From Rhizobacter sp. OV335 (GTDB lineage Bacteria; Pseudomonadota; Gammaproteobacteria; Burkholderiales; Burkholderiaceae_C), in assembly GCF_900142965.1 (NCBI RefSeq), contig NZ_FRCQ01000010.1:1-64000 (forward strand): 64,000 nt of DNA. The letters run 5' to 3'. Position numbers and translations under genes: made by a program. Of the stretch, positions 1,619 to 30,648 are shown in pieces. The notes below the pieces were generated by a model that made no database searches, was not told the origin of the DNA, and saw only the letters and a program-made list of their open reading frames with translations. Positions within the stretch are counted from its first letter, which is position 1. Each line of letters begins with the position of its first letter.

Positions 1619-1652
1619 GGTCGGCACTCCTTCATGCGCAGGGAGCGGGGCG

Positions 1653-3833
1653 TCATCCGCGCTGCAGCCGGTGCAGCCGCGCGTAGTGCCCGGCCTCCCG
1701 CTGCAGCAGCTCGGCATGCGGGCCGGCTTCGACGATGCGGCCTTCGTCCATCACGACGATGCGGTGGGCATCGCGCACCGCCGACAAGCGGTGCGCAATG
1801 ATGATCACGGTGCGGCCGCGGCAGATCGCCTTCATGTTGTCGTGCACGATGCGCTCGGATTCGACATCCAGCGCGCTGGTCGCCTCGTCGAACACCAGGA
1901 TGCGCGGGTTGCCCATCAGCGCGCGCGCGATCGCCAGCCGCTGCCGCTGCCCGCCCGACAGCGTCGAGCCATGCTCGCCGACCAGCGTGTCATAGCCCTC
2001 GGGCAGCGCGGTGATGAACTCGTGCGCGCCGGCCAGCGTCGCGGCCTGGATCACCGCGTCGAGCGGCGCGCCGGCATCGGCCAGCGCGATGTTCTCGCGG
2101 ATGCTGCGGTTGAACAGCATGTTGTCCTGCAGCACCACGCCGATCTGGCGGCGCAGCGAACTCGATTCGATGGTCGACAGGTCGATGCCGTCGATCAGCA
2201 CGCGCCCGCGCTCGGCCACGTACAGCCGCTGCAGCAGCTTCGCGAGCGTGCTCTTGCCCGAGCCGGAGCGGCCGACGATGCCGATCACCTCGCCGGCGGC
2301 GATGTCGATCGACAGGCTCTCGATCACCGGCGCGCGGTCGGGCCGGTAGCGGAACTGCACGTCGTCGAAGGTGATGCGCCCCGCCACCCGCGGCAGGCTG
2401 CCGCGCGCGCCGCCGCTTTCGGTGTGGGTGTCGAGGATGTCGCCCAGGCGCTGCATCGACACGCCGGTCTGCTGGAAATCGGTCCACAGCTGGGCCAGCC
2501 GCATCACCGGCAGCGCGACCTGCCCGGCCAGCATGTTGAACACGACGAGCTGGCCGACCGACATGCTGCCGTCGATGACCAGCCGCGCGCCGACGTACAG
2601 CGTCGCGAGCGTCACCGCCTTCGACACCATCGAGACGCCGCCCTGCGCGAGGCTCGCGATCGTCGTGGTGCGGAAGCTCGCCGACACGTAGGCGGCAAGC
2701 TGCTGGTCCCAGCGGCGCGTCCACTGCGGCTCCACCGCCATCGACTTGACGGTGTCGATGCCGTTCACCGTCTCGACCAGGAAGGCCTGGTTCTCGGCAC
2801 CGCGGTTGAACTTCTCGGCCAGGCGCGCGCGCAGCAGCGGCGTGAGGGCCAGCGACAGCAGCAGATAGCAGGGCAGCGAGGCCAGCACGATCAGCGTCAG
2901 CCAGCCGCTGTAGCACAGCATCACCGCGATGAAGACGACCGAGAACAGCAGGTCGAGCACCACGGTGATCGCATTGCCGGTCAGGAAGCTGCGGATGTTC
3001 TCGAGCTCGCGCACGCGTGCCACCGAATCGCCGACGCGCCGTGCCTGGAAGTAGGCGAGCGGCAGCGCCAGCAGGTGGCGGAACAGCCGCGCGCCGAGTT
3101 CGACGTCGATGCGGCTGGTGGTGTGCGCGAACACGTAGCTGCGCAAGGCCGTCAGCGCGACCTCGAACACCATCACCGTGCCCAGCCCGATCGCGATCAC
3201 GTCGAGCGTCGTGAAGCCGCGGTGCACCAGCACCTTGTCCATCACCACCTGGAAGAACAACGGCGTGACCAGCGCGAACAGCTGCAGCGCGAGGCTGACC
3301 AGCAGCACCTGGCCGAGCAGCCGGCGGTGGCGCACGACCGACGGGATGAACCAGGTGAAGTCGAACTTGCCCCATTCGCGGCCGGCCGAAACGCGCGACG
3401 CGAACAGGATCAGCTCGCCGGACCAGCGGGCACGCAACTCGTCGTGGCTCAGCAGTTCCGGGCGGCCGACCGCGGGGTCGTGGATCAGCACCCGGTCGCC
3501 GTCGACCTTCGCGATGATGAAGTAGTGCGGCGAGGCGGCGCCGGCGGTGTCTGCTGCAGGGGCCGCACAGGCGACGGCCGGCAGCGCGGTGGTGGCCAGC
3601 CGCTCGGGCGTGGTTCGGACGGCCTTGGCCTTCAGCTGCAGCTGCGCCGCGGCCTGCAGGATGTCGGCCGTGCCGAAGCAGCGGCCGCTGTCGACGAACT
3701 CGTGCGCGAGCTGCTCGCCGTCGGCGGCCACGCCGTGCAGGCGGGCCATCATCAGCAGGCAGGCGAGGCCGCTGTCGGCGGGGCGGGCGGGGGAGGGCAG
3801 CTGCGCCGGTGCGGCGTCGTGGGCCAGGGTCAT
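1653..3833 (-). CDS. Type I secretion ABC transporter with degenerate C39-like domain (HlyB type)
   Basis: 726-aa inner-membrane exporter ATPase. Residues 1-140 are a C39 peptidase-like domain in which the catalytic Cys position is Ser21 (ADSGLACLL), while the His (H103) and Asp (D119, HDPAVG) positions remain. This matches the non-cleaving HlyB-type domain that binds RTX substrates rather than a bacteriocin leader peptidase. The transmembrane domain spans about 165-440. The nucleotide-binding domain shows Walker A GRSGSGKST (521-529), signature LSGGQRQ (625-631), Walker B ILVFDE (645-650) and H681. It starts 12 bp after the RTX stop codon with no good ribosome-binding site, so its translation may depend on the upstream gene. 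Confidence 0.95.
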   Translation of the reverse strand: MTLAHDAAPAQLPSPARPADSGLACLLMMARLHGVAADGEQLAHEFVDSGRCFGTADILQAAAQLQLKAKAVRTTPERLATTALPAVACAAPAADTAGAASPHYFIIAKVDGDRVLIHDPAVGRPELLSHDELRARWSGELILFASRVSAGREWGKFDFTWFIPSVVRHRRLLGQVLLVSLALQLFALVTPLFFQVVMDKVLVHRGFTTLDVIAIGLGTVMVFEVALTALRSYVFAHTTSRIDVELGARLFRHLLALPLAYFQARRVGDSVARVRELENIRSFLTGNAITVVLDLLFSVVFIAVMLCYSGWLTLIVLASLPCYLLLSLALTPLLRARLAEKFNRGAENQAFLVETVNGIDTVKSMAVEPQWTRRWDQQLAAYVSASFRTTTIASLAQGGVSMVSKAVTLATLYVGARLVIDGSMSVGQLVVFNMLAGQVALPVMRLAQLWTDFQQTGVSMQRLGDILDTHTESGGARGSLPRVAGRITFDDVQFRYRPDRAPVIESLSIDIAAGEVIGIVGRSGSGKSTLAKLLQRLYVAERGRVLIDGIDLSTIESSSLRRQIGVVLQDNMLFNRSIRENIALADAGAPLDAVIQAATLAGAHEFITALPEGYDTLVGEHGSTLSGGQRQRLAIARALMGNPRILVFDEATSALDVESERIVHDNMKAICRGRTVIIIAHRLSAVRDAHRIVVMDEGRIVEAGPHAELLQREAGHYARLHRLQRG

Positions 3834-9323: not shown

Positions 9324-9509
9324 CCGCGGGTCCTGGGGCTGAATTGATCGCGCAGCTTAGGAGGCGGCTCTTCGGCCCGTCTACGGTCCAAAGCGACAGG
9401 CGAACGGAACTGGCCGCGAAAGCCGGTCATTTTCCGGACATCGCTCACGGGCCTGCCGCGGTGTACTTCCAGGGTGCCGCAGCTGCGGTCGTTCCTGGAG
9501 TCCCGTGTC

Positions 9510-10853
9510 ATGACCGTCCGCCTGTCCTACACCCTGCGCCTTGCCGGCGTGCTGGTGGCCACCGCTGTCGCGCTGCCTGCGGTTGCCCGCTGCATCGATG
9601 ACGAAGGTGTGGAGTCCAGCGTCAGCTACGGCGGCAGGCCCGTGGCGGGCGATGCCGGCGGGCCGCGCGCGTCGCTGCAATCGATGGTCCAGGAGGCCGT
9701 GCGGCGCAGCCAGTCGATCGGCGCGGCCAAGCTGCTGGCCGAGGCGGCCGCGGCCGATGTCGACGAGACCCGCATGTCCAGCCGCCCGCAGGCCGGCTTG
9801 ACCGGCACGCTGGGCCGCGTCGGCACGTCGGCCCCCAACACCGAATCCCTCAGCGGCAACCAGGCTCGCCTGGGCGTCAGCATCAGCGCGCCGCTGTTCG
9901 ACGGCGGCCGCATCACCCAGCTGACCGACTGGCGCAGCCACCTGGCCGAGGCCGCGCGCCAGGGCCAGCTGAGCGCGCAGGAGCAGGTCGCGCTGACGAC
10001 CGTGTCGCTCGCGCTCGACCGCAGCCGCTACCGCATGCAGGCGCAGGTCTACCAGCAGTACTCGCGCAAGATGAGCTGCCTGGTCGAGGCACTCGAAACC
10101 ATCGTGCGCGCCGACAAGGGCCGCACCAGCGAGCTGGTGCAGGCGCAGAAGAACCAGCAGCAGGCCGACCTGCAGCAGGTGCAGACGCTGTCGATGGTGC
10201 GCCAGATCGAGGTCAAGCTGCGCCGCTTCGTCGGCGACGGGTTGCCGCCGACCGAAGGCCTGTCGTCGGTGCTGCTCGACGTGCCCAAGCTCGACGAGCT
10301 GCTGGCCCAGGCCGACCGCGCCGCCGAGATCGCCCAGCTCGACCAGCAGGCCGAGGCGGCCGACAGCTACGCCCGCGCGGTGGTGGCCGGCCAGAAGCCG
10401 CAGGTCAACTGGACGGTGGGCGGCAGCAAGGCCAAGGGCGCCGGCGACGGCACCAACTGGTCGGCCGGCGTCAGCTTCAACATCCCGCTCTACAACGCCA
10501 GCAACGACTACTCCAGTGCCGCCGCGCGCAAGCGTGCCGAGGCCGCCAGACTGCAGCGCGCCGACGCGCTGGAAGGCCGGCGCTTCCGCATGAGCGAGGT
10601 GCACGAGCAGGCCACCTCCGCCTTCGACCGCGCGCAGCGTGTGATCTCGGTGCTGCGCGACAGCGACCGGGTGCGCAACTTCACGCTGCAGCAATGGCAG
10701 CAGCTGGGCCGCCGTTCGCTGTTCGACGTGATGGCCGCCGAGGGCGACCACTACGGCCTGCGCGTCGCCTACGTCAATGCGCTGTACGACGGCGAGCAGG
10801 CGAATGCGCTGCTGCGCTCGCTGGGGCTGGGCATCGGCGCCTGGCTCCAGTGA
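9510..10853 (+). CDS. TolC-family outer-membrane channel protein
   Basis: 447-aa outer-membrane efflux protein expected to complete the type I secretion system with the divergent ABC and HlyD genes. The start at 9510 is chosen because MTVRLSYTLRLAGVLVAT begins a clear signal peptide ending near AVARC, with ggag about 9 nt upstream; an in-frame ATG at 9474 would spoil the signal. The body is rich in Ala/Gln/Arg helices with the two internally similar halves of the family (LGVSISAPLFDGGR near 130 and WSAGVSFNIPLYNAS near 325). It is the first gene of a rightward run that continues into sugar-modification genes after a 40-bp gap. Confidence 0.9.
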   Translation: MTVRLSYTLRLAGVLVATAVALPAVARCIDDEGVESSVSYGGRPVAGDAGGPRASLQSMVQEAVRRSQSIGAAKLLAEAAAADVDETRMSSRPQAGLTGTLGRVGTSAPNTESLSGNQARLGVSISAPLFDGGRITQLTDWRSHLAEAARQGQLSAQEQVALTTVSLALDRSRYRMQAQVYQQYSRKMSCLVEALETIVRADKGRTSELVQAQKNQQQADLQQVQTLSMVRQIEVKLRRFVGDGLPPTEGLSSVLLDVPKLDELLAQADRAAEIAQLDQQAEAADSYARAVVAGQKPQVNWTVGGSKAKGAGDGTNWSAGVSFNIPLYNASNDYSSAAARKRAEAARLQRADALEGRRFRMSEVHEQATSAFDRAQRVISVLRDSDRVRNFTLQQWQQLGRRSLFDVMAAEGDHYGLRVAYVNALYDGEQANALLRSLGLGIGAWLQ

Positions 10854-17606: not shown

Positions 17607-17667
17607 GGCGCGCTCCGTGCTGCTGGGGCGCGACAAGCATAGACCCGCGGGTTGACCGGCGGGGGAT

Positions 17668-20487
17668 TTAAATCAACGGGCCGTTGCGCTGGGCGTCTTC
17701 GGCGAGCAGCCGGTGCTGCTCGGCGCTGAGGGCCGGGTTGGGCAGGTGGGCGGCCGGTGCCGAGGCGACCGCGGTCGCCGGGTGCGCGGCGTCATGCGCC
17801 AGTACCTCGCCGGCCGGGGCCGCCAACAACTCGTTCAACTGCACGGTCGGCGTCGAGAGCTTCTCCTTCGCGAACCACACATCCGCCATCTGGTGCTGCG
17901 AGCCGTCGCTCATCGTCACGCTCGACACCAACCCCAGCAGGTTTCCGTGGTCCACCTGGCTGCCCGTGAGCGCATGCAGGTCCAGCGACACCACACCCAC
18001 GTCCGCCAGCGATTTCAGCTCGCCGGCATCCGTCTTGCCGTCGTGGTTCGCGTCGACCCATAGCCGCAGGTCCTTGAAAGCGGCATCGGCGGCGTTGATT
18101 GCGCCGTCGTGGTTGCCATCCAGCTGTGCCAGTGCGGCATAGCCGTTCGCCGCCCGCGTGCCGTCGGCCATCCGCGTGCCGATGCCGAACAGCTCACTGC
18201 CGTCGTTGATCACGCCGTCGTGGTTGCGGTCCAGCGCCAGCAGCGCCGAGCCTTCCGCGACCCAGCCGGTGCGCGACGCACTGCCGGTGGCCGCGATGTC
18301 GAAGCTCACGCCCTGGCTCGCCGCACTCGTGTGGATGCCGGTGCCGGCCAGGTCGAGCACGATCGGCGTCACCGACAGCAGCGCCGAGATCTGCGCGCCC
18401 GTCATCACGCCGAGATCTTCCGGCGTGATCGCGGCCACCTGCTGCAGCGACATCGCGGCGATGTCGGCCGTCTCCAGCGCCACCGTCTGCGCGGTCGTCA
18501 GCGCGGCGATGTGGTCGGTGCTCAACCCGGCGATCTGGTCGGTGCCCAGCGCCACGATTTGCGCCGTCGACAGTGCGGCGAACTGGTGGGTGCTCAAGAC
18601 CCCGAGCTGGTCGCTGCCGAGGGCATGGAAGGCGGCGGTGCTGAGGGCCCGCAGGTCCTGCGTCTCCATCGCCGCCACCTGGGTGGCGTCGAGCCCGGCT
18701 GCCTGCGCGCTGGTCAATGCGGCGAACTGGGCGGAGCTCATCGCGACGATCTCGTCGGTCGTCAGCGCGGCAACGGCCGCGGCGCCGAGCGCCCGCACCG
18801 CGCCGCTGCTCAGCGCGGCCAGGTCGGCCGTCTCCAGCGCCGCCACCTGGGCCGGCGTCAGCGCCGCGGCCTGCGCGGTCGACAGCGCCGCGAACTGCGT
18901 GGTCGTCAGCGCGTTCAGGTAGTCGGTCGGCAGTGCTGCAAGCTGCGGACCGGTCAGCGATGCGATCTGCGCCGTCGTCAGCGCGGCGAACTGGTCCGAG
19001 CCGAGCGCCTCCATCTGCGCGGGCGTCAGCGCGCGGAACGCGGCCGAGCTCAGCGCGCGCAGGTCGGCGGTCTCCAGCGCCAGCATCTGATCCGTCGTCA
19101 GCGCGGCGGCCTGCGTCGCGGTGAGCGCCGCGGCCTGGGCCGTCGTCAGGGCGGCTATCTCGCCGGTCGTCAGCGCGGCGACCGAGGCCGCGCTCAGCGC
19201 CTTGATCGCCGCGGTGTTCAGCGCCGCCCAATCGGCCGTCTCAAGGCTCGCCACCTGGGTCGGCGACAAGGCCGCCACCTGCGCTGACGTCAGCGCGGCG
19301 AACTGCGCGGTGCCGAGCGCCTGCAGGTCGTCGCTGTTGAAAGAGGCCACCTGCGCCGGCGTCAGCGACGCGATCTGCGCGGTGGTCAGCACCGCCAGCT
19401 GTGTCGGGGTCAGCGCGTCGATCTGCGACGCGCTCAGTGCGCGGAACGCGGCCGAACTCAGCGCGCGCAGGTCGGCCGTCTCCAGCGCCGCGATCTGCGC
19501 GTCGCTCAATGCAGTGATCTGCGCCGAGCTCAGCGCCGCAGCCTGCGCGGTGGTCAATGCGGCGATCTCGTCCGTCGTCACCGCGGCCAGCGCCAGCGGG
19601 TCGATGCCGCGGATCGCGGCCGTCGACAACGCCGCCCAGTCGGCCGTGGGCAGCGCGGCCAGCTGTGCCGGGCTCAGCCCCGCGGCCTGCGCCGAGGTGA
19701 GGGCGGCGAACTGCTGTGTCGACATCTGCTGCAGGTCGTCGGTGCCGAGCGTCGCCACCTGCGCTGCTGTCAGCGCGGCGATCTGGGCGGTGCTCAACGC
19801 GCCGATCTGCGTCGGCAGCAGCCCGTCGAACTGCGTGGTCGTCAGCGCACCCAGCTGGGCCGTGCTCAACAGCGCGATCTGCGCGGTGGTCAAGGCATCG
19901 AGCTGCGCGGCCGACAGCCCGCGCAGCGCGGCCGTCGTCAGCGCGCGCAGGTCGGCGCTCTCCAGGTGCGAGATCTGCTGCGTGGTCAGCGCCGCGGCCT
20001 GCGCGCTGTTCAGCGCCGCGAACTCGGCGGTTGTCATCGCGTTCAGCGCCGCGGTCGCCAGCGCGGCGAGCGCGGCCGGCGACAGCGCGGCCACCTGCTG
20101 CGTGGTCAGCAGCACGATCTCCTGCGTCGTCAGCGCGGCCAGTTGCGCACTGCTCCAGCCGCGGATCGCCGCGGTGGTCAGCGCGCGCAGGTCGGCCGTC
20201 TCCAGGTTCGTGGCCTGCTGCGCGGTGATCGCGCCGGCCTGCACCGGCGTCAGCATGCCGAACTGCGCGGTCGTCAGCGCGTTCAGCTCGCTGGTCGTCA
20301 TGCCGGCGATCTGCTGCGTCGTCAGCGCCTGCACCTGGGCGTCGGTGAGCCCGGTGGTGTTGGAGGTGGTGACCGGCGGCGCCGGCGTGGCCGACGCGCT
20401 CGCGGTGTTGCCGTCGGACGAGAACAGGTCCCGCCAGGCCGAAGGCAGCAGCTTGCCGACCAACCACTTGACGAAGCCGAATTTCAT
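17668..20487 (-). CDS. Octapeptide-repeat protein with C-terminal FrpC-type calcium-binding module (smaller paralogue)
   Basis: 939-aa protein of unknown function. Residues 1-45 include a short amphipathic start and an Ala/Thr/Pro linker, with no signal peptide. Residues about 46-706 are about 82 tandem octads of the pattern small-L-[ST]-[ST]-x-Q-hydrophobic-x. Octads carrying ETADLR, SDDLQ and ETADWA recur with spacing 6, 4 and 7, a 17-octad cycle of 136 aa; the matching DNA sites at 18,655, 19,063 and 19,471 are exactly 408 bp apart. Residues 707-939 hold EF-hand-like loops (DRNHDGVINDGSE, DGNHDGAINAAD, DANHDGKTDAGE) and end in NGPLI. Clear ribosome-binding bases are missing before the ATG. 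It lies 81 bp downstream of the giant paralogue. Confidence 0.85.
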   Translation of the reverse strand: MKFGFVKWLVGKLLPSAWRDLFSSDGNTASASATPAPPVTTSNTTGLTDAQVQALTTQQIAGMTTSELNALTTAQFGMLTPVQAGAITAQQATNLETADLRALTTAAIRGWSSAQLAALTTQEIVLLTTQQVAALSPAALAALATAALNAMTTAEFAALNSAQAAALTTQQISHLESADLRALTTAALRGLSAAQLDALTTAQIALLSTAQLGALTTTQFDGLLPTQIGALSTAQIAALTAAQVATLGTDDLQQMSTQQFAALTSAQAAGLSPAQLAALPTADWAALSTAAIRGIDPLALAAVTTDEIAALTTAQAAALSSAQITALSDAQIAALETADLRALSSAAFRALSASQIDALTPTQLAVLTTAQIASLTPAQVASFNSDDLQALGTAQFAALTSAQVAALSPTQVASLETADWAALNTAAIKALSAASVAALTTGEIAALTTAQAAALTATQAAALTTDQMLALETADLRALSSAAFRALTPAQMEALGSDQFAALTTAQIASLTGPQLAALPTDYLNALTTTQFAALSTAQAAALTPAQVAALETADLAALSSGAVRALGAAAVAALTTDEIVAMSSAQFAALTSAQAAGLDATQVAAMETQDLRALSTAAFHALGSDQLGVLSTHQFAALSTAQIVALGTDQIAGLSTDHIAALTTAQTVALETADIAAMSLQQVAAITPEDLGVMTGAQISALLSVTPIVLDLAGTGIHTSAASQGVSFDIAATGSASRTGWVAEGSALLALDRNHDGVINDGSELFGIGTRMADGTRAANGYAALAQLDGNHDGAINAADAAFKDLRLWVDANHDGKTDAGELKSLADVGVVSLDLHALTGSQVDHGNLLGLVSSVTMSDGSQHQMADVWFAKEKLSTPTVQLNELLAAPAGEVLAHDAAHPATAVASAPAAHLPNPALSAEQHRLLAEDAQRNGPLI

Positions 20488-20568: not shown

Positions 20569-23500
20569 TCAGATCAGCGGGCCGATGTTCTTCAGGTGCT
20601 CTTCATCGGCCAGCAGCTTGTGGTCGATGTGCACCGCGGCGTGCGCCGTCGGTTGCGTCGCCGCCACCGTCGGGGCACTGCTGCCACCGGCCAGCACGTC
20701 GCTGGTCGGCGCGGCCAGCACGTCGGCCAGTTGCACCGGCAGTTCCTTGGCTGCCGCCGCATCGGTCGTCGGCGCCTTGCCGAACCACACGTCCGCCATG
20801 TCGTGCTTGGCGCCGTCCGCCGTCGTGTAGCTCGACACCAGGCCCAGCAGGTTGCCGTTCTGCACCGTCGCGCCGCTCGCGGCATGCAGGTCCAGAGAGA
20901 CGATCCCGAAGTCGGCCAGGCCGTGCAGCTCGCCCTTCTCGGAGATGCCGTCCTGGTTGGCATCGACCCACACCTTCAGCTTGTCGAAGTTCACGTCCGC
21001 GGCGGTCAGCTTGCCGTCGTGGTTCGTGTCCTCGATCTTCATCGCTTCGTAACCGTTGCCGGCGCGGGTGCCGTCGGCCTTCACGGTCGCGACGCCGAAC
21101 AGCTCGGTGCCGTCGTTGATCTTGCCGTCGCCGTTGCGGTCCATCACCAGGATGCCGTCGGTCGCGGCCGCCCAGCCCACCTTGTTGGCATGGCCGGTGG
21201 CGTTCAGGTCGAAGTTGACCCCGTGCGCCGCCGACACCGTCGAGACGCCGTCACCGTTCAGGTCCAGCACGATCGGCGAGGCCGCCATGAAGGCATCCAG
21301 CTGCGGCGACGACATCACCGCGATGTCCTGCCCTTCGAAGGCCGAGATCTGCGTCATCGACATCGCCGCGATGTCCTGGGTCTCCAGGGCCATCGTCTGC
21401 GTGGTCGTCAGCGCGATCACCTGGTCGGTCGTCAGCGAATGCACCTGGGCGGTCGTGAAGGCCGCGATCTGGGCACCGCTCAACGCCTGGAAGGTGTCGG
21501 TCGTGATGGCCTGGATCTGGTCGGTCGTCAGCGACTGGATCGCGGCCGTGCTCAGCGCATGGATGTCCGCGGTTTCCAGGTTGCCGATCTGCGTGGCCGT
21601 CAGCGACTGGATCTGCGCCGTGTTCATCACCAGGAACTGCGAGGCGGTGAACGCGTTCAGGTCGTCGGTCGCCAGGTGCGAGAGCTGCGAGGTCGTCAGG
21701 TTGCTCACCTGGCCGCCCAGCGACGACAGCTGCGTCGTGGTCAGTTCACCCAGTTGCGCATCCGTCAGGGCACGCAGCGAGGTCGAGGTCAGTGAGCGCA
21801 GGTCCTGCGTCTCGATCACCGAGATCTGGTCGGTCGTGATGCCGAGCACCTGGGTCGCCGACAGCGACGCGTAGTGCGCCGTGGTCAGGGCCTGCAGGTC
21901 ATCGGTCGCCATCGTGCCGATCTGCGACGCGGTCAGCGAGGCCGACTGTGCCGTGGTCAGCGCCGCGAACTGCGTGCCCGTCAGCGCGTTCAGGTCGTCA
22001 CTCGACAGGCTGGAGATCTGCGTCGTCGTCAGCGAAGCCACCTGGGCCGTCGTCAAGGCACCGAACTGGTCGGAACCCATCGCGTCCAGCTGCGCGGTGC
22101 TCAGCGAACGCAGTGCCGCGGTGCTCAGCGCACGCAGGTCGTCGGTCTGCAGGGCCGCCATCTGGTCGGACGTGAAGGACTGCACCTGGGCCGTCGAGAA
22201 GACCGCGAACTGGCTGGTGGTCAGCGCGTTCAGGTCATCGGTGGTCAGCGTGCCGACCTGGCTGGCCGACAGGGCCGCCACCTGGCCGGTGGTCAGGGCC
22301 GCCATCTGGTCGGAGGTCAACGCCTCCAGCTGGGCGGAGTCCAGCGCGCGGATCGCGTTGGTGCTCAGCGCGCGCAGGTCGGAAGACTCCAGGTTCGGCA
22401 TCTGGTCGGTCGTCAGCGCATGCGCCTGGGCCGTGGTCAGTGCCGCGTACTGCGCCGTCGTCAGTGCACGCAGGTCGTCGGATTGCAGGCCGGCGATCTG
22501 GGTGACCGTCAGCGATGCCACCTGGGCCGTCGTCATCGCCGCGAACTGCGCGGTGCCGAAGGCGTTCAGGTCGTCGGTGACCAGGTTGCTCAGTTGCGCG
22601 GTCGTCAACGCCGTCACCTGGGCCACCGTGAGCTGGCCCATCTGGTCGGAGCTCAGCGCATCGATCTGCGCGGTGCTCATGTTGGCGATGGCCGAGGTGC
22701 TGAGGGCACGCAGGTCCGACGATTCCAGGTGCGGGATCTGGTCGGAGGTCAGCGAAGCCACCTGCGCGGTCGACAGGATCGCGAACTGCGTGGTGCTCAG
22801 CGCGTTCAGCGAGTCGGAGCTCAGCGACGACAGCTGGGTGGTCGTCAGCGCGCCCACTTGCGCCGTCGTCAGCGACGCGACCTGGTCCGAGGTCAGCGCA
22901 GCGAACTGGTCGCTGTTCAGGCCACGGATGCCGGCGGTGCTGATGGCACGCAGGTCAGCCGATTCCAGGTGCGGGATCTGGTCGCTGGTCAGCGCGCCGA
23001 CTTGCGCGGTGCTGAGCGCAGCGTAGTGCGCCGTGGTCATCGCACGCAGGTCGTCGGTTTCCAGGCCAGCCACCTGGCCGACCGTCAGCGAAGCGACCTG
23101 GGCGGTCGACAGCGCGGCGAAGTCGGCGGTGTTCAGCGCGTTCAGGTCGGTGCTGGTCAGGTTGCTCAGCTGCGAGGTGGTCAGTGCGGCCACTTGCGCG
23201 GTCGTCAGCTGGCCCATCTGGTCCGAGGTCAGCGCATCGATCTGCGCCGTGGTCCAGTTGCGGATCGCGGCGGTGCTCAGGGCACGCAGGTCGGCCGATT
23301 CCAGCGTCGGGATCTGGTCGGTGGTCAGCGCGGCGGCCTGGGCGGTCGACAGCGTCGCGAACTGCGTCGTCGTCAGCGCGTTCAGGTCGTCGGTGCCCAG
23401 CTGCGACAGCTGGGTCGTCGTCAGCGCGGCCACTTGCGCGGTCGTCAGCGCGGCGAACTGGTCGCTGGTCAGCGAACCGAGCTGCGCCGAGTCGAGCTGG

Positions 23501-26500
23501 CGCAGCGCCGTCGTGCTGATCGCACGCAGGTCGCTGGATTCGAGGTTCGGCAGCTGGTCGGTCGTCAGTGCGGCGACTTGCGTGGTCGACAGCGCGGCGA
23601 AGTGCGCCGTCGTCATCGCACGCAGGTCGTCCGACTGCAGGCCGGCGATCTGGCCGGCCGTCAGCGATGCGACCTGGGCGGTCGACAGCGCGGCGAAGTC
23701 AGCCGTGTTCAGCGCGTTCAGGTCGTCGCTGACCAGGTTGCTCAGCTGGGCGGTCGTCAGGCCGGCGACTTGCGCGGTCGTCAGCTGGCCCATCTGGTCG
23801 GAGGTCAGCGCATCGATCTGCGCGGTGCTCCAGTTGCGGATCGCGGCGGTGCTCAAGGCGCGCAGGTCCGACGATTCGAGGTGCGGGATCTGGTCGGTCG
23901 TCAGCGACGCGGCTTGCGCGGTCGACAGGATCGCGAACTGGGCGGTGCTCAGTGCGTTCAGCGAGTCGGAGGTCAGCGACGACAGCTGGGTCGTCGTCAG
24001 CGCGGCGACTTGGGCGGTCGTCAGCGAAGCCACCTGGTCCGAGGTCAGCGCAGCGAACTGGTCGCTGTTCAGGCCGCGGATGCCGGCGGTGCTGATGGCA
24101 CGCAGGTCAGCCGATTCCAGGTGCGGGATCTGGTCGCTGGTCAGCGCGCCGACTTGCGCGGTGCTGAGCGCGGCGAACTGCGCCGTCGTCATCGCACGCA
24201 GGTCGTCGGTCTCGAGGCCAGCCACCTGGCCGACCGTCAGCGCAGCGACCTGGGCGGTCGACAGCGCAGCGAAGTCCGCGGTGTTCAGCGCATTCAGGTC
24301 GGTGCTGGTCAGGTTGGCCAGCTGGGTGGTCGTCAGGCCGGCCACTTGCGCGGTCGTCAGCTGGCCCATCTGGTCGGAGCTCAGCGCGTTCAGCTGGTCG
24401 GTGTTCCACGAGCGCAGGGCAGCGGTGCTCAGCGCACGCAGGTCCGAAGACTCCAGGTGCGGGATCTGGTCGGTCGTCAGCGACGCGACTTGCGCGGTCG
24501 ACAGGATCGCGAACTGGGTGGTGCTCAGTGCGTTCAGCGAGTCGGAGGTCAGCGAGGACAGCTGGGTCGTCGTCAGTGCGGCGACTTGCGCGGTCGTCAG
24601 CGAAGCCACTTGATCCGAGGTGAGGGCCGCGAACTGGTCGCTGTTCAGGCCGCGGATGCCGGCGGTGCTGATGGCACGCAGGTCAGCCGATTCCAGGTGC
24701 GGGATCTGGTCGCTGGTGAGGGCACCGACTTGCGCGGTCGACAGCGCGGCGAAGTGCGCCGTCGTCATTGCACGCAGGTCGTCGGTTTCCAGTCCGGCAA
24801 TCTGGCTGACCTTCAGCGCGGCGACCTGGGCGGTCGTCAGCGCGGCGAAGTCAGCGGTGTTCAGCGCGTTCAGGTCCTCGGTCGTCAGGTTCGCCAGTTG
24901 GGTGGTCGTCAGGCCGGCCACTTGCGCGGTCGTCAGCTGGCCCATCTGGTCGGAGCTCAGCGCGTTCAGCTGGTCGGTGCTCCACGAACGCAGCGCCGCG
25001 GTGCTCAGCGTGCGCAGGTCGGACGATTCGAGCACCGGGATCTGGTCGGTGGTCAGCGACGCGACTTGCGTGGTCGACAGCGCGGCGTACTGCTGCGTCG
25101 TCAGCGCGCGCAGGTCGTCGCTGTTCAGCGTCGACAGCTGGGTGGTCGTCAGCGCGGCGACCTGGCCGGTCGTCAGTGCGCCGATCTGGCCCGAGTCGAG
25201 GGCGGCCAGCTGGTCGCTGTTCAGCGCGCGGATGGCCGTCGTGCTGATGGCGCGCAGGTCGGCCGATTCGAGGTTCGGGATCTGGTCGGTCGTCAACGCA
25301 CCGACTTGCGCCGAGTTCATCGCGGCGTATTGCGCGGTGGTCAGGGCACGCAGGTCATCGGATTGCAGGCCGGCGATCTGGGTCGGCGTCAGCGACGCGA
25401 CTTGCGCGGTGGACAGCGCAGCGAACTGCGCGGTGTTCATCGCGTTCAGGTCGTCGGTGACCAGGTTCGACAGCTGGGCGGTCGTCAGGCCGGCCACTTG
25501 CGCGGTCGTCAGCTGGCCCATCTGGTCGGAGCTCAGCGCGTCGATCTGCGCGGTGGTCCAGTTGCGCAGCGCGGCGGTGCTCAGCGAGCGCAGGTCCGAC
25601 GACTCCAGGTGCGGGATCTGGTCGGTCGTCAGCGCAGCGGCCTGGGCGGTCGACAGGATCGCGAACTGGTTGGTCGTCAGCGCGTTCAGGTCATCGGAGC
25701 CGAGGCCGGCGAGTTGCGCCGGCGTCAGCGCAGCGACCTGGCCGGTCGTCAGCGCAGCGAACTGGTCGCTGGTCAAGGCACCGAGCTGGTCGGAGTTCAG
25801 CTGGCGCAGCGCGGCGGTGCTGATGGCGCGCAGGTCGGCGGATTCGAGGTTCGGCAGCTGGTCGGTGGTCAGCGCGGCGACTTGCGCGGTGTTCAGCGCG
25901 GCGTACTGGGCCGTCGTCAGGGCACGCAGGTCATCGGATTGCAGGCCGGCGATCTGCGTCGCGGTCAGGCCGGCGACTTGCGCGGTCGACAGCGCGACGA
26001 ACTGCGCGGTGTTCATCGCGTTCAGGTCGTCGGTCACCAGGTTGCTCAGCTGGGCGGTCGTCAGGGCGGCCACTTGCGCGGTCGTCAGCTGGCCCATCTG
26101 GTCGGAGGTCAGTGCATCGACTTGCGCGGTGGTCCAGTTGCGGATCGCGGCGGTGCTCAGCGAGCGCAGGTCCGACGACTCCAGGTGCGGGATCTGGTCG
26201 GTCGTCAGCGCAGCGGCCTGGGCGGTCGACAGCGTCGCGAACTGGTTGGTCGTCAGCGCGTTCAGGTCGTCGGTGCCGAGCGTCGACAGCTGGGTCGTGG
26301 TCAGCGCGGCAATCTGGCCGGTCGTCAGCGCAGCGAACTGGTCGCTGGTCAGGGCGCCGAGCTGGCTGGAGTCGAGCTGGCGCAGCGCCGTCGTGCTGAT
26401 CGCACGCAGGTCGGCTGATTCGAGGTTCGGCAGCTGGTCGGTCGTCAGCGCGGCGACCTGGGCGGTCGTCAGCGCTGCGAACTGGGCGGTGCTCAGTGCG

Positions 26501-29500
26501 CGCAGGTCATCGGATTGCAGGCCGGCGATCTGGGTCGGCGTCAGCGACGCGACCTGGGCGGTGGACAGCGCGGCGAACTGCGCGGTGTTCATCGCGTTCA
26601 GGTCGTCGGTGACCAGGTTCGACAGCTGGGCGGTCGTCAGGCCGGCGACTTGCGCGGTCGTCAGCTGGCCCATCTGGTCGGAGCTCAGCGCATCGACCTG
26701 CGCGGTGCTCCAGTTGCGGATCGCGGCGGTGCTCAGCGCACGCAGGTCCGACGATTCGAGGTGCGGGATCTGGTCGGTGGTCAGCGCGGCGGCCTGGGCG
26801 GTCGACAGGATCGCGAACTGGGCGGTGCTCAGCGCGTTCAGCGAGTCGGAGCTCAGCGAGGCCAGCTGGGTCGTCGTCAACGCGGCGACCTGGGCGGTCG
26901 TCAGCGAAGCCACCTGGTCCGAGGTCAGCGCAGCGAACTGGTCGCTGTTCAGGCCGCGGATGCCGGCGGTGCTGATGGCACGCAGGTCGGCGGATTCGAG
27001 GTGCGGGATCTGGTCGCTGGTGAGGGCGCCGACTTGCGCGGTGCTGAGCGCGGCGAACTGCGCCGTCGTCATCGCACGCAGGTCATCGGTCTCGAGGCCG
27101 GCCACCTGGCTGACCTTCAGCGCGGCGACCTGGGCGGTCGACAGCGCGGCGAAGTCGGCGGTGTTCAGCGCGTTCAGGTCTTCGGTCGTCAGGTTGGCGA
27201 CCTGGGTGGTCGACAGCGCGGCAACCTGGGCCGTGCTCAGCGCGCCCATGTGGTCGGAGTTCAGCGCGGCCAGCTGGTCGCTGTTCAGCGCGCGGATCGC
27301 GGCGGTGCTCAGCGCACGCAGATCCTGCGTCTCCAGGTTCGACATCTGCGTCGTCGTGATGGCGGCGGCCTGGGCGGTCGTCATCGCGGCGAACTGCGCA
27401 GTGGTCAGCGCGTTCAGGTTGTTGGTGTTCAGGCCGTCGACCTGCGGCGTCGAGGTCAGCGCGGCGACCTGGGCGGTCGTCAGCTGGGCCATCTGGTCGG
27501 AGGTCAGCGCATTGATCTGGTCGGTGTTCAGCGCGCGGATCGCGGCGGTGCTGAGCGCGCGCAGGTCGGCCGATTCGAGGTTCGGGATCTGGTCGGTCGT
27601 CAGCGCGCCGACCTGGGCCGAGTTCATCGCGGCGTATTGCGCGGTGCTCAGCGCACGCAGGTCATCGGACACCAGTCCGGCGATCTGGGCGGTGGTCAGC
27701 GACGCGACCTGGGCGGTGGACAGCGCGGCGAACTGCGCGGTGTTCATCGCGTTCAGGTCGGCGGTGTTCAGGCTCGTCAGCTGGGTGGTGGTCAGGCCGG
27801 CCACTTGCGCGGTCGTCAACTGGCCCATCTGGTCGGAGCTCAGCGCGTCGATCTGGGCGGTGGTCCAGCTGCGCAGCGCGGCGGTGCTCAGCGTGCGCAG
27901 GTCCGACGATTCCAGGTGCGGGATCTGGTCGGTGGTCAGCGCGGCGGTCTGCGCGCTCGACATCGCGGTGAATTGCGCGGTGCTCAGTGCGTTCAGGTCG
28001 TCCGAGGCCAGCGAGGCGATCTGCGTGGTCGTCAGCGCGGCCACCTGCGTGGTCGTCAGCGACGCGATCTGGTCGGAGGTGAGGGCGGCGAACTGGTCGC
28101 TGTTGAGGCCGCGGATGCCGGCGGTGCTGATCGCACGCAGGTCCGAGGACTCGATGTTGGGCATCTGGTCGCTGGTCAGCGCGGCGACTTGCGCCGTCGT
28201 CATCGCGGCGTATTGCCCGGTGGTCAGCGCGCGCAGGTCATCGGATTGCAGGCCGGCGATCTGCGTCGGGGTCAGCGCGGCGACTTGCGCGGTCGACAGC
28301 GCGACGAACTGCGCGGTGTTCATCGCGTTCAGGTCGTCGGTGCTCAGGTTGGCCAGTTGGGACGTGGTCAGTGCGGCGACCTGGGCGGTCGTCAGCTGGC
28401 CCATCTGGTCGGAGGTCAGCGCGTCGACTTGCGCGGTGGTCCAGTTGCGCAGCGCGGCGGTGCTCAGCGCGCGCAGGTCGGACGATTCGAGCGTCGGGAT
28501 CTGATCGGTGGTCAGCGAGGCGGCTTGCGCGGTCGACAGCGTCGCGAACTGCGTGGTCGTCAGCGCGTTCAGGTCGTCGGTGCCGAGGGTCGACAGCTGG
28601 GTCGTCGTCAGCGCGGCGACCTGGCCGGTGGTCAGCGCGGCCATCTGGTCGCTGGTCAGCGAGCCGAGCTGGTCGGAGTTCAGCTGGCGCAGCGCGGCGG
28701 TGCTGATGGCACGCAGGTCGCTCGATTCGAGGTTCGGGATCTGGTCGGTGGTCAGTGCGGCGACCTGGGCGGTCGTCAGCGCCGCGAACTGGGCGGTGCT
28801 CAGCGCACGCAGGTCATCGGACTGCAGGCCGGCGATCTGCGTCGGCGTCAGCGCGGCGACTTGCGCGGTGGACAGCGCGGCGAACTGGTTCGTCGTCAGC
28901 GCGTTCAGGTCGTCGGTGACCAGGTTGGCCAGCTGTGCGGTGGTCAGCGCAGCGACTTGCGAGGTCGTCAGCTGGGCCATCTGGTCGCTGGTCAGCGCGT
29001 CGACCTGGGCGGTGGTCCAGTTGCGGATCGCGGCGGTGCTCAGGGCACGCAGGTCCGACGATTCGAGGTGCGGGATCTGGTCGGAGGTCAGCGCGGCGGC
29101 CTGGGCCGTCGACAGCACGCCGAACTGCGTGGTGCTCAGCGCGTTCAGCGAATCGGAGGTCAGCGACGACAGCTGGCCGGTCGTCAGCGCGGAGATCTGG
29201 CCGGTGGTCAGCGAGCCGACCTGGTCGGAGGTCAGTGCGCCGAACTGGTCGCTGTTCAGGCCGCGGATGCCGGCGGTGCTGATGGCACGCAGGTCGGACG
29301 ATTCGAGCTTCGGGATCTGGTCGCTGGTCAGCGCGCCGACTTGCGCGGTGGTCAGTGCAGCGTACTGGGCGGTGCTCAGGGCGCGCAGGTCATCGGATTG
29401 CAGTCCGGCGATCTGCGTCGGGGTCAGGGCCACGACTTGCGCGGTGGACAGTGCGGCGAATTGCGCGGTGTTCAGCGCGTTCAGGTCGTCGGTGGTCAGG

Positions 29501-30648
29501 TTGGCCAGTTGCGCGGTGGTCAGGCCGGCGACCTGGGCGGTCGTCAGCGCGCCCATCTGGTCGGAGGTCAGCGCGTCGATCTGCGCGGTGGTCCAGCCCT
29601 TCAGCGCGGCGGTGCTCAGCGCGCGCAGGTCGTTGGTTTCCAGCGTCGGGATCTGGTCGGTGGTCAGCGCAGCGGCCTGGGCGGTCGACAGCGCGGCGAA
29701 CTGCGTGGTCGTCAGCGCGTTCAGGTCGTCGGTGCCCAGCGTCGACAGCTGGGTGGTCGTCAGCGCGGCGACCTGGCCGGTGGTGAGGGCGGCGAACTGG
29801 TCGCTGGTCAGCGAGCCGAGCTGGTCGGAATTGAGCTGGCGCAGCGCGGCGGTGCTGATCGCACGCAGGTCGCTGGATTCGAGGTTGGGCAGCTGGTCGG
29901 TCGTCAGCGCGGCGACCTGGGCGGTCGTCATCGCGGCGTACTGGGCGGTGCTCAGGGCACGCAGGTCATCGGACTGCAGGCCGGCGACTTGCGTCGGCGT
30001 CAGCGCCACGACTTGCGCGGTGGACAGCGCGGCGAACTGCGCGGTGTTCATCGCGTTCAGGTCGTCGGTGACCAGGTTGGCCAGCTGGGCGGTCGTCATG
30101 GCGGCCACCTGCGAGGTGGTCAGCTGGCCCATCTGGTCGGAGGTCAGCGCATCGATCTGCGCGGTCGACAGGTTGCGGATCGCGGCCGAGCTCAGCGAGC
30201 GCAGGTCCGACGATTCGAGCGTCGGGATCTGGTCGGAGGTCAGCGCCGCGGCCTGCGCGGTGGTCAGCGCGGCGAACTGGTTGGTCGTCAGCGCGTTCAG
30301 GTCGTCGGTGCCGAGGTGCGCGATCTGCGTGGTCGTCAGCGATGCGACCTGGGCGGTTGTCAGCGCGGCGAACTGGTCGGAGTTGAAAGCGCCCAGCTGG
30401 TCGGAGTTCAGTGCGCGCAGCGCGGTGGAGCTCAGCGCCCGCAGGTCTTGCGTCTCCATCACGGCGAGTTCGGCGGTGCCGATCGCGGAGATGTTGGTCG
30501 ACGGGATCGCGGCGACCTGCGTCGTCGTCAGTGCCTGGAACTGCGCGGTGTTGAACGCGGCCCAGTCCTCGGTCGTCAGCCCGGCAATGGACTTCGTCGA
30601 CAAGCCGGCGATCTGAGCGGTCGTCAGGAACTGAATGATGCTGGCCAT
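20569..30648 (-). CDS. Giant octapeptide-repeat protein with C-terminal FrpC-type calcium-binding module
   Basis: 3359-aa protein of unknown function. Residues 7-3123 are about 390 tandem octads with the consensus A-L-[TS]-[TS]-[AD]-Q-[VIMF]-[AGP]. Every 24 octads the order repeats, marked by five acidic octads (TDDLN, ESSDLR, TDDLN, QSDDLR, ESSDLR types) at spacing 4-6-4-4-6, giving a 192-aa unit present 14 times plus diverged ends. Residues 3124-3359 are a calcium-binding module starting SPIVLDLNGDG, with loops DRNGDGKINDGTE, DTNHDGKLTAAD and DANQDGISEKGE, and the tail NIGPLI shared with the smaller paralogue. There is no signal peptide or membrane anchor, which fits type I export. The start at 30,648 has aaagga 8 nt upstream. 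Probably a surface fibre, layer or adhesin, but this is inference. Confidence 0.87.
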   Translation of the reverse strand: MASIIQFLTTAQIAGLSTKSIAGLTTEDWAAFNTAQFQALTTTQVAAIPSTNISAIGTAELAVMETQDLRALSSTALRALNSDQLGAFNSDQFAALTTAQVASLTTTQIAHLGTDDLNALTTNQFAALTTAQAAALTSDQIPTLESSDLRSLSSAAIRNLSTAQIDALTSDQMGQLTTSQVAAMTTAQLANLVTDDLNAMNTAQFAALSTAQVVALTPTQVAGLQSDDLRALSTAQYAAMTTAQVAALTTDQLPNLESSDLRAISTAALRQLNSDQLGSLTSDQFAALTTGQVAALTTTQLSTLGTDDLNALTTTQFAALSTAQAAALTTDQIPTLETNDLRALSTAALKGWTTAQIDALTSDQMGALTTAQVAGLTTAQLANLTTDDLNALNTAQFAALSTAQVVALTPTQIAGLQSDDLRALSTAQYAALTTAQVGALTSDQIPKLESSDLRAISTAGIRGLNSDQFGALTSDQVGSLTTGQISALTTGQLSSLTSDSLNALSTTQFGVLSTAQAAALTSDQIPHLESSDLRALSTAAIRNWTTAQVDALTSDQMAQLTTSQVAALTTAQLANLVTDDLNALTTNQFAALSTAQVAALTPTQIAGLQSDDLRALSTAQFAALTTAQVAALTTDQIPNLESSDLRAISTAALRQLNSDQLGSLTSDQMAALTTGQVAALTTTQLSTLGTDDLNALTTTQFATLSTAQAASLTTDQIPTLESSDLRALSTAALRNWTTAQVDALTSDQMGQLTTAQVAALTTSQLANLSTDDLNAMNTAQFVALSTAQVAALTPTQIAGLQSDDLRALTTGQYAAMTTAQVAALTSDQMPNIESSDLRAISTAGIRGLNSDQFAALTSDQIASLTTTQVAALTTTQIASLASDDLNALSTAQFTAMSSAQTAALTTDQIPHLESSDLRTLSTAALRSWTTAQIDALSSDQMGQLTTAQVAGLTTTQLTSLNTADLNAMNTAQFAALSTAQVASLTTAQIAGLVSDDLRALSTAQYAAMNSAQVGALTTDQIPNLESADLRALSTAAIRALNTDQINALTSDQMAQLTTAQVAALTSTPQVDGLNTNNLNALTTAQFAAMTTAQAAAITTTQMSNLETQDLRALSTAAIRALNSDQLAALNSDHMGALSTAQVAALSTTQVANLTTEDLNALNTADFAALSTAQVAALKVSQVAGLETDDLRAMTTAQFAALSTAQVGALTSDQIPHLESADLRAISTAGIRGLNSDQFAALTSDQVASLTTAQVAALTTTQLASLSSDSLNALSTAQFAILSTAQAAALTTDQIPHLESSDLRALSTAAIRNWSTAQVDALSSDQMGQLTTAQVAGLTTAQLSNLVTDDLNAMNTAQFAALSTAQVASLTPTQIAGLQSDDLRALSTAQFAALTTAQVAALTTDQLPNLESADLRAISTTALRQLDSSQLGALTSDQFAALTTGQIAALTTTQLSTLGTDDLNALTTNQFATLSTAQAAALTTDQIPHLESSDLRSLSTAAIRNWTTAQVDALTSDQMGQLTTAQVAALTTAQLSNLVTDDLNAMNTAQFVALSTAQVAGLTATQIAGLQSDDLRALTTAQYAALNTAQVAALTTDQLPNLESADLRAISTAALRQLNSDQLGALTSDQFAALTTGQVAALTPAQLAGLGSDDLNALTTNQFAILSTAQAAALTTDQIPHLESSDLRSLSTAALRNWTTAQIDALSSDQMGQLTTAQVAGLTTAQLSNLVTDDLNAMNTAQFAALSTAQVASLTPTQIAGLQSDDLRALTTAQYAAMNSAQVGALTTDQIPNLESADLRAISTTAIRALNSDQLAALDSGQIGALTTGQVAALTTTQLSTLNSDDLRALTTQQYAALSTTQVASLTTDQIPVLESSDLRTLSTAALRSWSTDQLNALSSDQMGQLTTAQVAGLTTTQLANLTTEDLNALNTADFAALTTAQVAALKVSQIAGLETDDLRAMTTAHFAALSTAQVGALTSDQIPHLESADLRAISTAGIRGLNSDQFAALTSDQVASLTTAQVAALTTTQLSSLTSDSLNALSTTQFAILSTAQVASLTTDQIPHLESSDLRALSTAALRSWNTDQLNALSSDQMGQLTTAQVAGLTTTQLANLTSTDLNALNTADFAALSTAQVAALTVGQVAGLETDDLRAMTTAQFAALSTAQVGALTSDQIPHLESADLRAISTAGIRGLNSDQFAALTSDQVASLTTAQVAALTTTQLSSLTSDSLNALSTAQFAILSTAQAASLTTDQIPHLESSDLRALSTAAIRNWSTAQIDALTSDQMGQLTTAQVAGLTTAQLSNLVSDDLNALNTADFAALSTAQVASLTAGQIAGLQSDDLRAMTTAHFAALSTTQVAALTTDQLPNLESSDLRAISTTALRQLDSAQLGSLTSDQFAALTTAQVAALTTTQLSQLGTDDLNALTTTQFATLSTAQAAALTTDQIPTLESADLRALSTAAIRNWTTAQIDALTSDQMGQLTTAQVAALTTSQLSNLTSTDLNALNTADFAALSTAQVASLTVGQVAGLETDDLRAMTTAHYAALSTAQVGALTSDQIPHLESADLRAISTAGIRGLNSDQFAALTSDQVASLTTAQVGALTTTQLSSLSSDSLNALSTTQFAILSTAQVASLTSDQIPHLESSDLRALSTSAIANMSTAQIDALSSDQMGQLTVAQVTALTTAQLSNLVTDDLNAFGTAQFAAMTTAQVASLTVTQIAGLQSDDLRALTTAQYAALTTAQAHALTTDQMPNLESSDLRALSTNAIRALDSAQLEALTSDQMAALTTGQVAALSASQVGTLTTDDLNALTTSQFAVFSTAQVQSFTSDQMAALQTDDLRALSTAALRSLSTAQLDAMGSDQFGALTTAQVASLTTTQISSLSSDDLNALTGTQFAALTTAQSASLTASQIGTMATDDLQALTTAHYASLSATQVLGITTDQISVIETQDLRSLTSTSLRALTDAQLGELTTTQLSSLGGQVSNLTTSQLSHLATDDLNAFTASQFLVMNTAQIQSLTATQIGNLETADIHALSTAAIQSLTTDQIQAITTDTFQALSGAQIAAFTTAQVHSLTTDQVIALTTTQTMALETQDIAAMSMTQISAFEGQDIAVMSSPQLDAFMAASPIVLDLNGDGVSTVSAAHGVNFDLNATGHANKVGWAAATDGILVMDRNGDGKINDGTELFGVATVKADGTRAGNGYEAMKIEDTNHDGKLTAADVNFDKLKVWVDANQDGISEKGELHGLADFGIVSLDLHAASGATVQNGNLLGLVSSYTTADGAKHDMADVWFGKAPTTDAAAAKELPVQLADVLAAPTSDVLAGGSSAPTVAATQPTAHAAVHIDHKLLADEEHLKNIGPLI
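22252..30318. repeat. Tandem DNA array: 14 units of 576 bp (one with an extra codon), built of 24-bp sub-repeats
   Basis: The TDDLN-encoding site at 30,295-30,318 and its equivalent at 22,228-22,251 are 8067 bp apart, which is 14 x 576 + 3. The site ggcccatctgg and its variants recur at this spacing throughout (for example 22,635 and 23,211). The extra 3 bp is near 27,440, where one octad has nine residues (ALTSTPQVD). Units are very similar and mostly differ at single bases, implying recent duplication or gene conversion. Copy number may be affected by assembly error. Confidence 0.93.

Follow-up and report, generated by a model that had tools for sequence, protein, structure and literature searches.

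The 64,000-nt window analysed here, the first 64 kb of contig NZ_FRCQ01000010.1 of Rhizobacter sp. OV335, contains a gene encoding a 3359 residue protein composed, apart from its C-terminal end, of eight-residue repeats (octads) of the ALTTAQ family, and this gene belongs to a recurring neighbourhood of type I secretion genes and a GT41 glycosyltransferase gene. We think it fairly probable that the protein forms a Ser/Thr-rich helical screw that is O-glycosylated in the cytoplasm, exported by a type I system and deployed as a surface fibre or adhesin. We lean, if only slightly, towards a more general reading, namely that the octads build a helix of higher order much as residues build an ordinary one, its turn nearly fixed at ~3.4 octads, that cycles of 17, 24, 27 and 44 octads are whole-turn approximants of this helix, and that the resulting giant barber-pole fibre serves as substrate to a 'glyco-type I' system that has its own GT41 enzyme and uses different transporters in two or more classes of Pseudomonadota. 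The octad repeat is already known; the hidden geometry and the linked sugar and export genes look new. The features of the protein, and a second ALTTAQ gene, are as follows.

20569..30648, minus strand: ALTTAQ-repeat gene, 3359 aa, Met codon at 30648, stop at 20569-20571
21277..30627, minus strand: octad tract, 385 octads by segmentation, 24-octad (192-aa) super-cycle, PF20080 in 110 stretches
20767..21276, minus strand: putative calcium-folding module like the FrpC self-processing module (SPM), Ser instead of Asp before its first Pro
20572..20766, minus strand: C-terminal tail ending GPLI, candidate type I secretion signal, predicted local distance difference test (pLDDT) below 50 over most of it
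17668..20487, minus strand: second ALTTAQ gene, 939 aa, with a C-terminal module of like kind (Thr-Pro) and a GPLI end

The octad repeat and its predicted fold

The repeat matches Pfam PF20080 (ALTTAQ) with an E-value of 0 and 2871 bits over 110 stretches (curated cut-off 26.4 bits), which contradicts the statement of the first-pass annotation, a reading of the sequence alone, that no named fold or family fits. The same octad occurs in the PDB chain HeliScrew4 (9zem), matched at E 3.6e-19 in a gapless register over 107 residues. Of what that annotation had said would count against it, a well-described family with known fold and function, these two matches supply half: with them the repeat gains a name and, probably, a solved relative, while no function was found. 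The PF20080 model has 38 positions, and its listing holds no super-cycle, turn number, GT41 link or SPM-like cap; HeliScrew4, compared here by sequence, is a 120 residue chain of merely 15 octads without a long cycle. No paper was found in the open-licence literature under the names HeliScrew or ALTTAQ, nor did any title there turn up on an ALTTAQ, GT41 and type I system. PF20080 is present in 39 of 150 genomes of the same family (36 above the cut-off) and in 25 of 299 genomes of the phylum (22 above it). Among 14 control genomes, Caulobacter vibrioides alone has both ALTTAQ and GT41. Matches to Pfam Phage_TAC_7, LRR_EndoS, CAAP1 and AbiEi_4 and to leucine-rich-repeat PDB chains were set aside as cross-matches of the Leu-rich octad. 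An NCBIfam type IX secretion (T9SS) match that scored 20.6 bits with a cut-off of 40 was rejected too. The protein is not a member of the RTX family, having no PF00353 nonapeptide repeats at E up to 1, and a plasmid collection searched with the C-terminal 932 bases of the gene gave no match.

Compared with itself, the repeat part has an identity of 0.355 at lag 8 and, among the lags under 40, of 0.02-0.12 wherever the lag is not divisible by 8. Segmentation yields 385 octads with two irregular steps, close to the ~390 first counted, and the 24-octad cycle noticed at first pass is confirmed by an identity of 0.696 at lag 192. Octads averaging at least 1.5 acidic residues fall at cycle positions 3, 7, 13, 17 and 23, a spacing of 4-6-4-6-4 that is a rotation of the 4-6-4-4-6 originally described. 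As also stated there, the repeats do not extend into the last 236 residues, and a signal peptide, likewise reported missing, is not evident in the protein when its sequence is read by eye. The first 3100 residues contain 817 Ser plus Thr, 5 Lys and no Cys, in a window of 68% G+C.

AlphaFold2 models two cycles (384 aa, 42 alignment rows) with a mean pLDDT of 95.4 and a predicted template modelling score of 0.83, and places a helix of 5-6 residues in nearly every octad, shortest in the acidic octads of ESSDLR type. This prediction of two units, of the kind the first-pass annotation had called for, agrees with its suggestion of a tight helical solenoid with Thr or Ser at the helix starts. The method may be overconfident on repeats, as described for beta-solenoids (PMC11795689), and that caution stands for the octad model too. 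The only PDB matches found by Foldseek at E of 0.001 or below are five mesothelin chains (7ued, 8fsl, 8cx3 and 8cxc among them; E 9.3e-5). Mesothelin, whose 24 short helices are described as packing in nine layers into a compact, right-handed solenoid (PMC10035497), is to that extent alike, but it has no octad cycle and its TM-score to the octad model is just 0.25-0.37.

A possible superhelical periodicity

One scan provided at least 78 loci of relatives, from genera including Rhizobacter, Roseateles, Pelomonas, Aquabacterium, Ideonella and Leptothrix. Among the 61 loci with enough repeats, self-similarity is strongest at a lag of 136 aa in 27, of 216 in 10, 192 in 6, 272 in 6, 408 in 2, and 352, 488 and 544 in one each. 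Expressed in octads these lags are 17, 27, 24, 34, 51, 44, 61 and 68, all of them sums of 7 and 10, a pattern that is weak for the larger cycle lengths since most large numbers fit it. In the remaining seven loci (L104, L108, L112, L114, L134, L144, L160) the best lag is 355, 386, 491 or 574 aa; as these are not multiples of 8, the octad register must be broken at least once per cycle.

A single frequency recurs beneath these different cycles. Acidic residues per octad were treated as a series in 80 sequences (the 78 loci and the two window proteins), of which 72 were kept, seven being dropped for less than 300 aa of repeats and one for fewer than 40 octads. Averaged over the 72 proteins, the spectrum has its maximum at 0.295 cycles per octad, with a power of 32.3 where none of 20 octad shuffles exceeds 1.50; taken singly, 61 of the proteins peak at 0.288-0.300. 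Of the 11 that remain, six have their peak at 0.407-0.418, where the second harmonic is aliased; other harmonics are close to the peaks of L156 (0.470) and L121 (0.184), that of L155 falls at 0.300, and those of L120 and L122, both short, have no explanation. For the 40 proteins with at least 150 octads the frequency is 0.2944 (standard deviation 0.0012), equal to 3.40 octads per turn or 106 degrees per octad. In a family of another class (f40), a spectrum of multiple features has a peak at 0.291-0.294 that exceeds the highest of three shuffles in 6 of 10 ALTTAQ proteins (L181, L182, L183, L178, L185, L186); with acidic residues alone the 0.294 peak is not clear in most f40 proteins. The one locus of family f44 that was tried (L180) had no tract passing the filters.

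The super-cycle therefore looks like a whole number of superhelical turns, with 24 octads making 7. The first-pass annotation took 24 octads as the true unit: the cycle is real, but relatives have cycles of other lengths, and the sequence periodicity suggests that it is seven turns of a ~3.4-octad superhelix and not the basic unit. Setting out the window protein's 24 positions at 105 degrees per octad brings distant but like octads side by side in angle. The positions group in stripes, with octads of DLR type at 315, 345 and 15 degrees, of DLN type at 255 and 285, of DQIP type at 240 and 270, and of AAIR type at 90 and 120. Nearly all acidic octads lie between 195 and 15 degrees, positions 0 and 2 differing in detail. 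The relation would resemble that of heptads and hendecads to the alpha-helix, the 17, 24, 27 and 44 octad cycles being like approximants for an octad superhelix.

Linkage to GT41 and type I secretion genes

All 11 genomes of the genus contain a GT41 gene, and in 8 of them it lies within ~31 kb of an ALTTAQ gene; in G006, G008 and the present genome (G000) the two are on different contigs. In G007 a GT41 gene with tetratricopeptide repeats (TPRs; PF13844, E 2.7e-78) adjoins a transporter other than ABC1, the one next to the window's RTX gene. In the present genome the start of contig C23 carries, all on the same strand and with gaps of 2 and 20 bases, genes for HlyD, ABC and GT41-TPR proteins.

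L097:4126-5973: GT41 gene of the present genome, PF13844 at E 4.3e-76, above the cut-off, with TPRs

The nearest solved structure to this GT41 is XcOGT (E 1.4e-77). From synteny with G004 we infer that the C23 operon is next to the beginning of contig C31, where the window also begins.

Of the 21 family regions listed that have, on a single contig, a GT41 gene no more than 30 kb from an SPM-module or ALTTAQ gene, 20 were examined, together with 20 control GT41 regions away from ALTTAQ, hand-picked from the matches listed. Since nearness to ALTTAQ decided which regions entered each set, the comparison tests the link between GT41 and type I genes. Relatives of the GT41-linked transporter, adaptor and outer membrane efflux protein (ABC2, HlyD2, OEP) occur in 18 of the 20 linked regions, in the order GT41-ABC2-HlyD2-OEP in 15 and with GT41 after OEP in 3; L193 and L207 lack the full set, L207 being just 11 kb long. 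HlyD2 and OEP are found in none of the 20 control regions, two of which have a partial ABC. A tree of 41 GT41 sequences places the linked ones in two clades (17 including that of the present genome, and 4), each with support of 100/100 and free of controls. With ABC, HlyD and OEP genes linked in the window, elsewhere in the genome and in these 18 regions, gene content speaks for the type I export proposed at first pass.

The link recurs in f40, where all 12 genomes searched (of 16 with ALTTAQ) have GT41 and 5 of 7 regions have GT41, HlyD and ABC genes beside the ALTTAQ genes. The ABC proteins of those five regions are nearer to ABC1 (36-37%) than to ABC2 (28-29%). Of the other two, L233 has GT41 beside an octad frame with type I genes not in view, and L236 has GT41 alone. 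L233 (5254-16596, minus strand) also contains a single 3781-aa frame with several GT41 domains in a row, beside the octad-repeat frame.

A comparable arrangement is described for the HMW1 adhesin, likewise a large exported protein with a dedicated cytoplasmic enzyme of the GT41 family, HMW1C (PMC3012730, PMC2877744). HMW1 uses two-partner secretion and is modified at Asn, whereas the genes here point to type I secretion and an OGT-like GT41.

Proposed mechanism and its alternatives

In the mechanism that we propose, each octad would be one short, T/S-capped helix turning ~106 degrees from the last, with ~3.4 octads per turn, so that 24 octads would complete 7 turns and cycles of 17, 27 and 44 octads elsewhere 5, 8 and 13. 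Every face of the screw would bear its own octad type, including one acidic face. Ser and Thr residues would be O-glycosylated in the cytoplasm by the dedicated OGT-like GT41, a step suggested by the GT41 linkage together with the abundance of Ser and Thr in the first 3100 residues. The sugar donor may be made by the neighbouring Fdt-type genes, a guess based on FdtA/FdtB pathways. The protein would then leave C-terminus first through the GT41-linked ABC2/HlyD2/OEP system and fold outside the cell, its C-terminus capped by the FrpC-like calcium-folding module, probably to serve as a surface fibre or adhesin; adhesin, sheath and layer are not separable by sequence. If the geometry is true, the surface of one of the longest bacterial helical solenoids becomes readable octad by octad, because sequence position fixes the face. 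If the GT41 link is true, type I secretion is to be counted among the export routes that have a glycosylation step of their own in the cytoplasm, and bacterial OGT-like enzymes gain natural candidate substrates with hundreds of possible sites.

Several results weigh against this model. The GT41 operon of the present genome is on a separate contig, its adjacency to the window resting on synteny with G004. Linkage as defined above is found in at least 21 of the 39 ALTTAQ-positive family genomes (a count that leaves out the present genome because of the contig break), and GT41 is absent from the three f44 and two f32 genomes searched, both families with ALTTAQ matches, so the link is common but not universal. 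As to geometry, the window protein's spectrum of multiple features has, besides its peak at 0.292, another at 0.208 that is almost as strong (24.6 and 20.9), in L189 the 0.208 peak outranks the other, the top peak of L186 is at 0.499, and four of the 10 f40 proteins (L176, L177, L179, L184) have no peak near 0.294 above shuffles.

The alternative that fares best, though we consider it unlikely, is that the screw is exported by type I secretion unglycosylated, GT41 having some other protein as its target and the Fdt genes acting for lipopolysaccharide or capsule. GT41 is indeed far more widespread than ALTTAQ in the family (91 and 39 of 150 genomes), DegT relatives are listed in just 6 of the 20 linked regions, and the f44 and f32 genomes have ALTTAQ without GT41. 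Against this, the linked GT41s keep to two clades of their own, stand with type I genes in nearly all the linked regions, and recur in f40 with a different ABC.

A little less probable still is that the 3.4-octad frequency was inherited from one ancestral block of 7+10 octads and has little bearing on the fold. The proteins tested are mostly related Burkholderiales sequences, any large octad number is a sum of 7s and 10s, and the four f40 proteins without the peak fit such descent. Against it stand the single frequency across cycles of 17, 24, 27 and 44 octads, its occurrence in six of the ten f40 proteins, and the adjacency in angle of like octads.

The C-terminal module

The C-terminal module matches the FrpC SPM (6sjw) at E 6.2e-33, and its model has a TM-score of 0.82 to it by target length. 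In a 472 residue C-terminal model (AlphaFold2 pLDDT 83) the octad helices pass straight into the SPM-like domain. FrpC is described as folding upon calcium binding, which strains and then cuts the Asp414-Pro415 bond (PMC7078468). The residue at the position of this scissile Asp is Thr in 42, Ser in 36 and Asp in none of the 78 relatives listed, and the position of FrpC Asp478 is occupied by Asp in none of 15 alignment rows. Compared with the FrpC structures (6sjw, 6sjx), the C-terminal domain is alike and the calcium loops are mostly kept, but the FrpC module has Asp-Pro and sits inside an RTX protein, whereas here it has Ser/Thr-Pro and ends a helical screw. The SPM fold is thus probably retained and, because the Asp-Pro site is Ser/Thr-Pro throughout the relatives listed, the clip-and-link chemistry probably lost. 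We accordingly rejected clip-and-link cross-linking for the window protein, in which Ser-Pro replaces the scissile Asp-Pro: an FrpC-like self-cleavage of the module, with an Asp-Lys isopeptide bond cross-linking the fibre, is very improbable, given also the 5 Lys of the repeat part, and despite the clear match in fold and sequence. A PLI terminus, as in the candidate secretion signal, is found in 46 of the 78 relatives listed, and may stand with the ABC/HlyD/OEP linkage among the marks of a type I substrate.

Two further SPM-like modules occur in the same genome (contig C14, 38050-38535, minus strand; contig C69, 8133-8612, minus strand), in frames of 1738 and 4037 aa.

Selection and tract growth

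The identity of the repeat part to itself declines from 0.696 at lag 192 to 0.636 at 384 and 0.560 at 576, as expected of a tract grown by tandem duplication of 192-aa units. The dN/dS ratio of the gene is 0.162 against G005 and 0.127 against G004, both Rhizobacter relatives, values that show purifying selection, and its C-terminal module is matched in 11 of 11 genomes of the genus. A gene that arose through repeat expansion and goes unexpressed would agree with adjacent cycles being most alike and with the G003 copy being broken over several frames, but such a reading is barely credible beside these dN/dS values, the module's presence throughout the genus and the long open frames in most of its genomes. 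The G003 gene (L045:5333-16392) is split into several overlapping frames, by mutation or assembly error.

Neighbouring genes

Other features annotated in the window are these.

191..1717, minus strand: HlyD of an RTX-linked type I system (HlyD1), PF13437
1653..3833, minus strand: ABC transporter with C39-like domain (ABC1)
3846-9323, minus strand: RTX protein, 1825 aa, 15 PF00353 stretches, between ABC1 and OEP
9474..10853, plus strand: outer membrane efflux protein (TolC-like, OEP), PF02321
10777..16048, plus strand: sugar genes (FdtA/hexapeptide, GNAT, DegT aminotransferase, GT2, hexapeptide transferase, methyltransferase)
16071-17636, minus strand: methyl-accepting chemotaxis protein, between the ALTTAQ and sugar genes

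The exonuclease I gene (sbcB) adjoins the 3359-aa gene, and ARAGORN finds no tRNA in the window. Among the flanks of eight genus relatives, sbcB is near the large ALTTAQ gene in four (G001, G002, G003, G009), the rest being not listed or not covered. An ABC/HlyD pair ~30% identical to the window's pair occurs in six (G001, G002, G003, G004, G007, G010), and a DegT relative is listed in five. The window's own RTX/ABC1 set is common to G004 and G005 only; there the RTX protein is 62-66% identical and its ABC ~95%, and the chemotaxis protein is 94-95% identical in the same two genomes.
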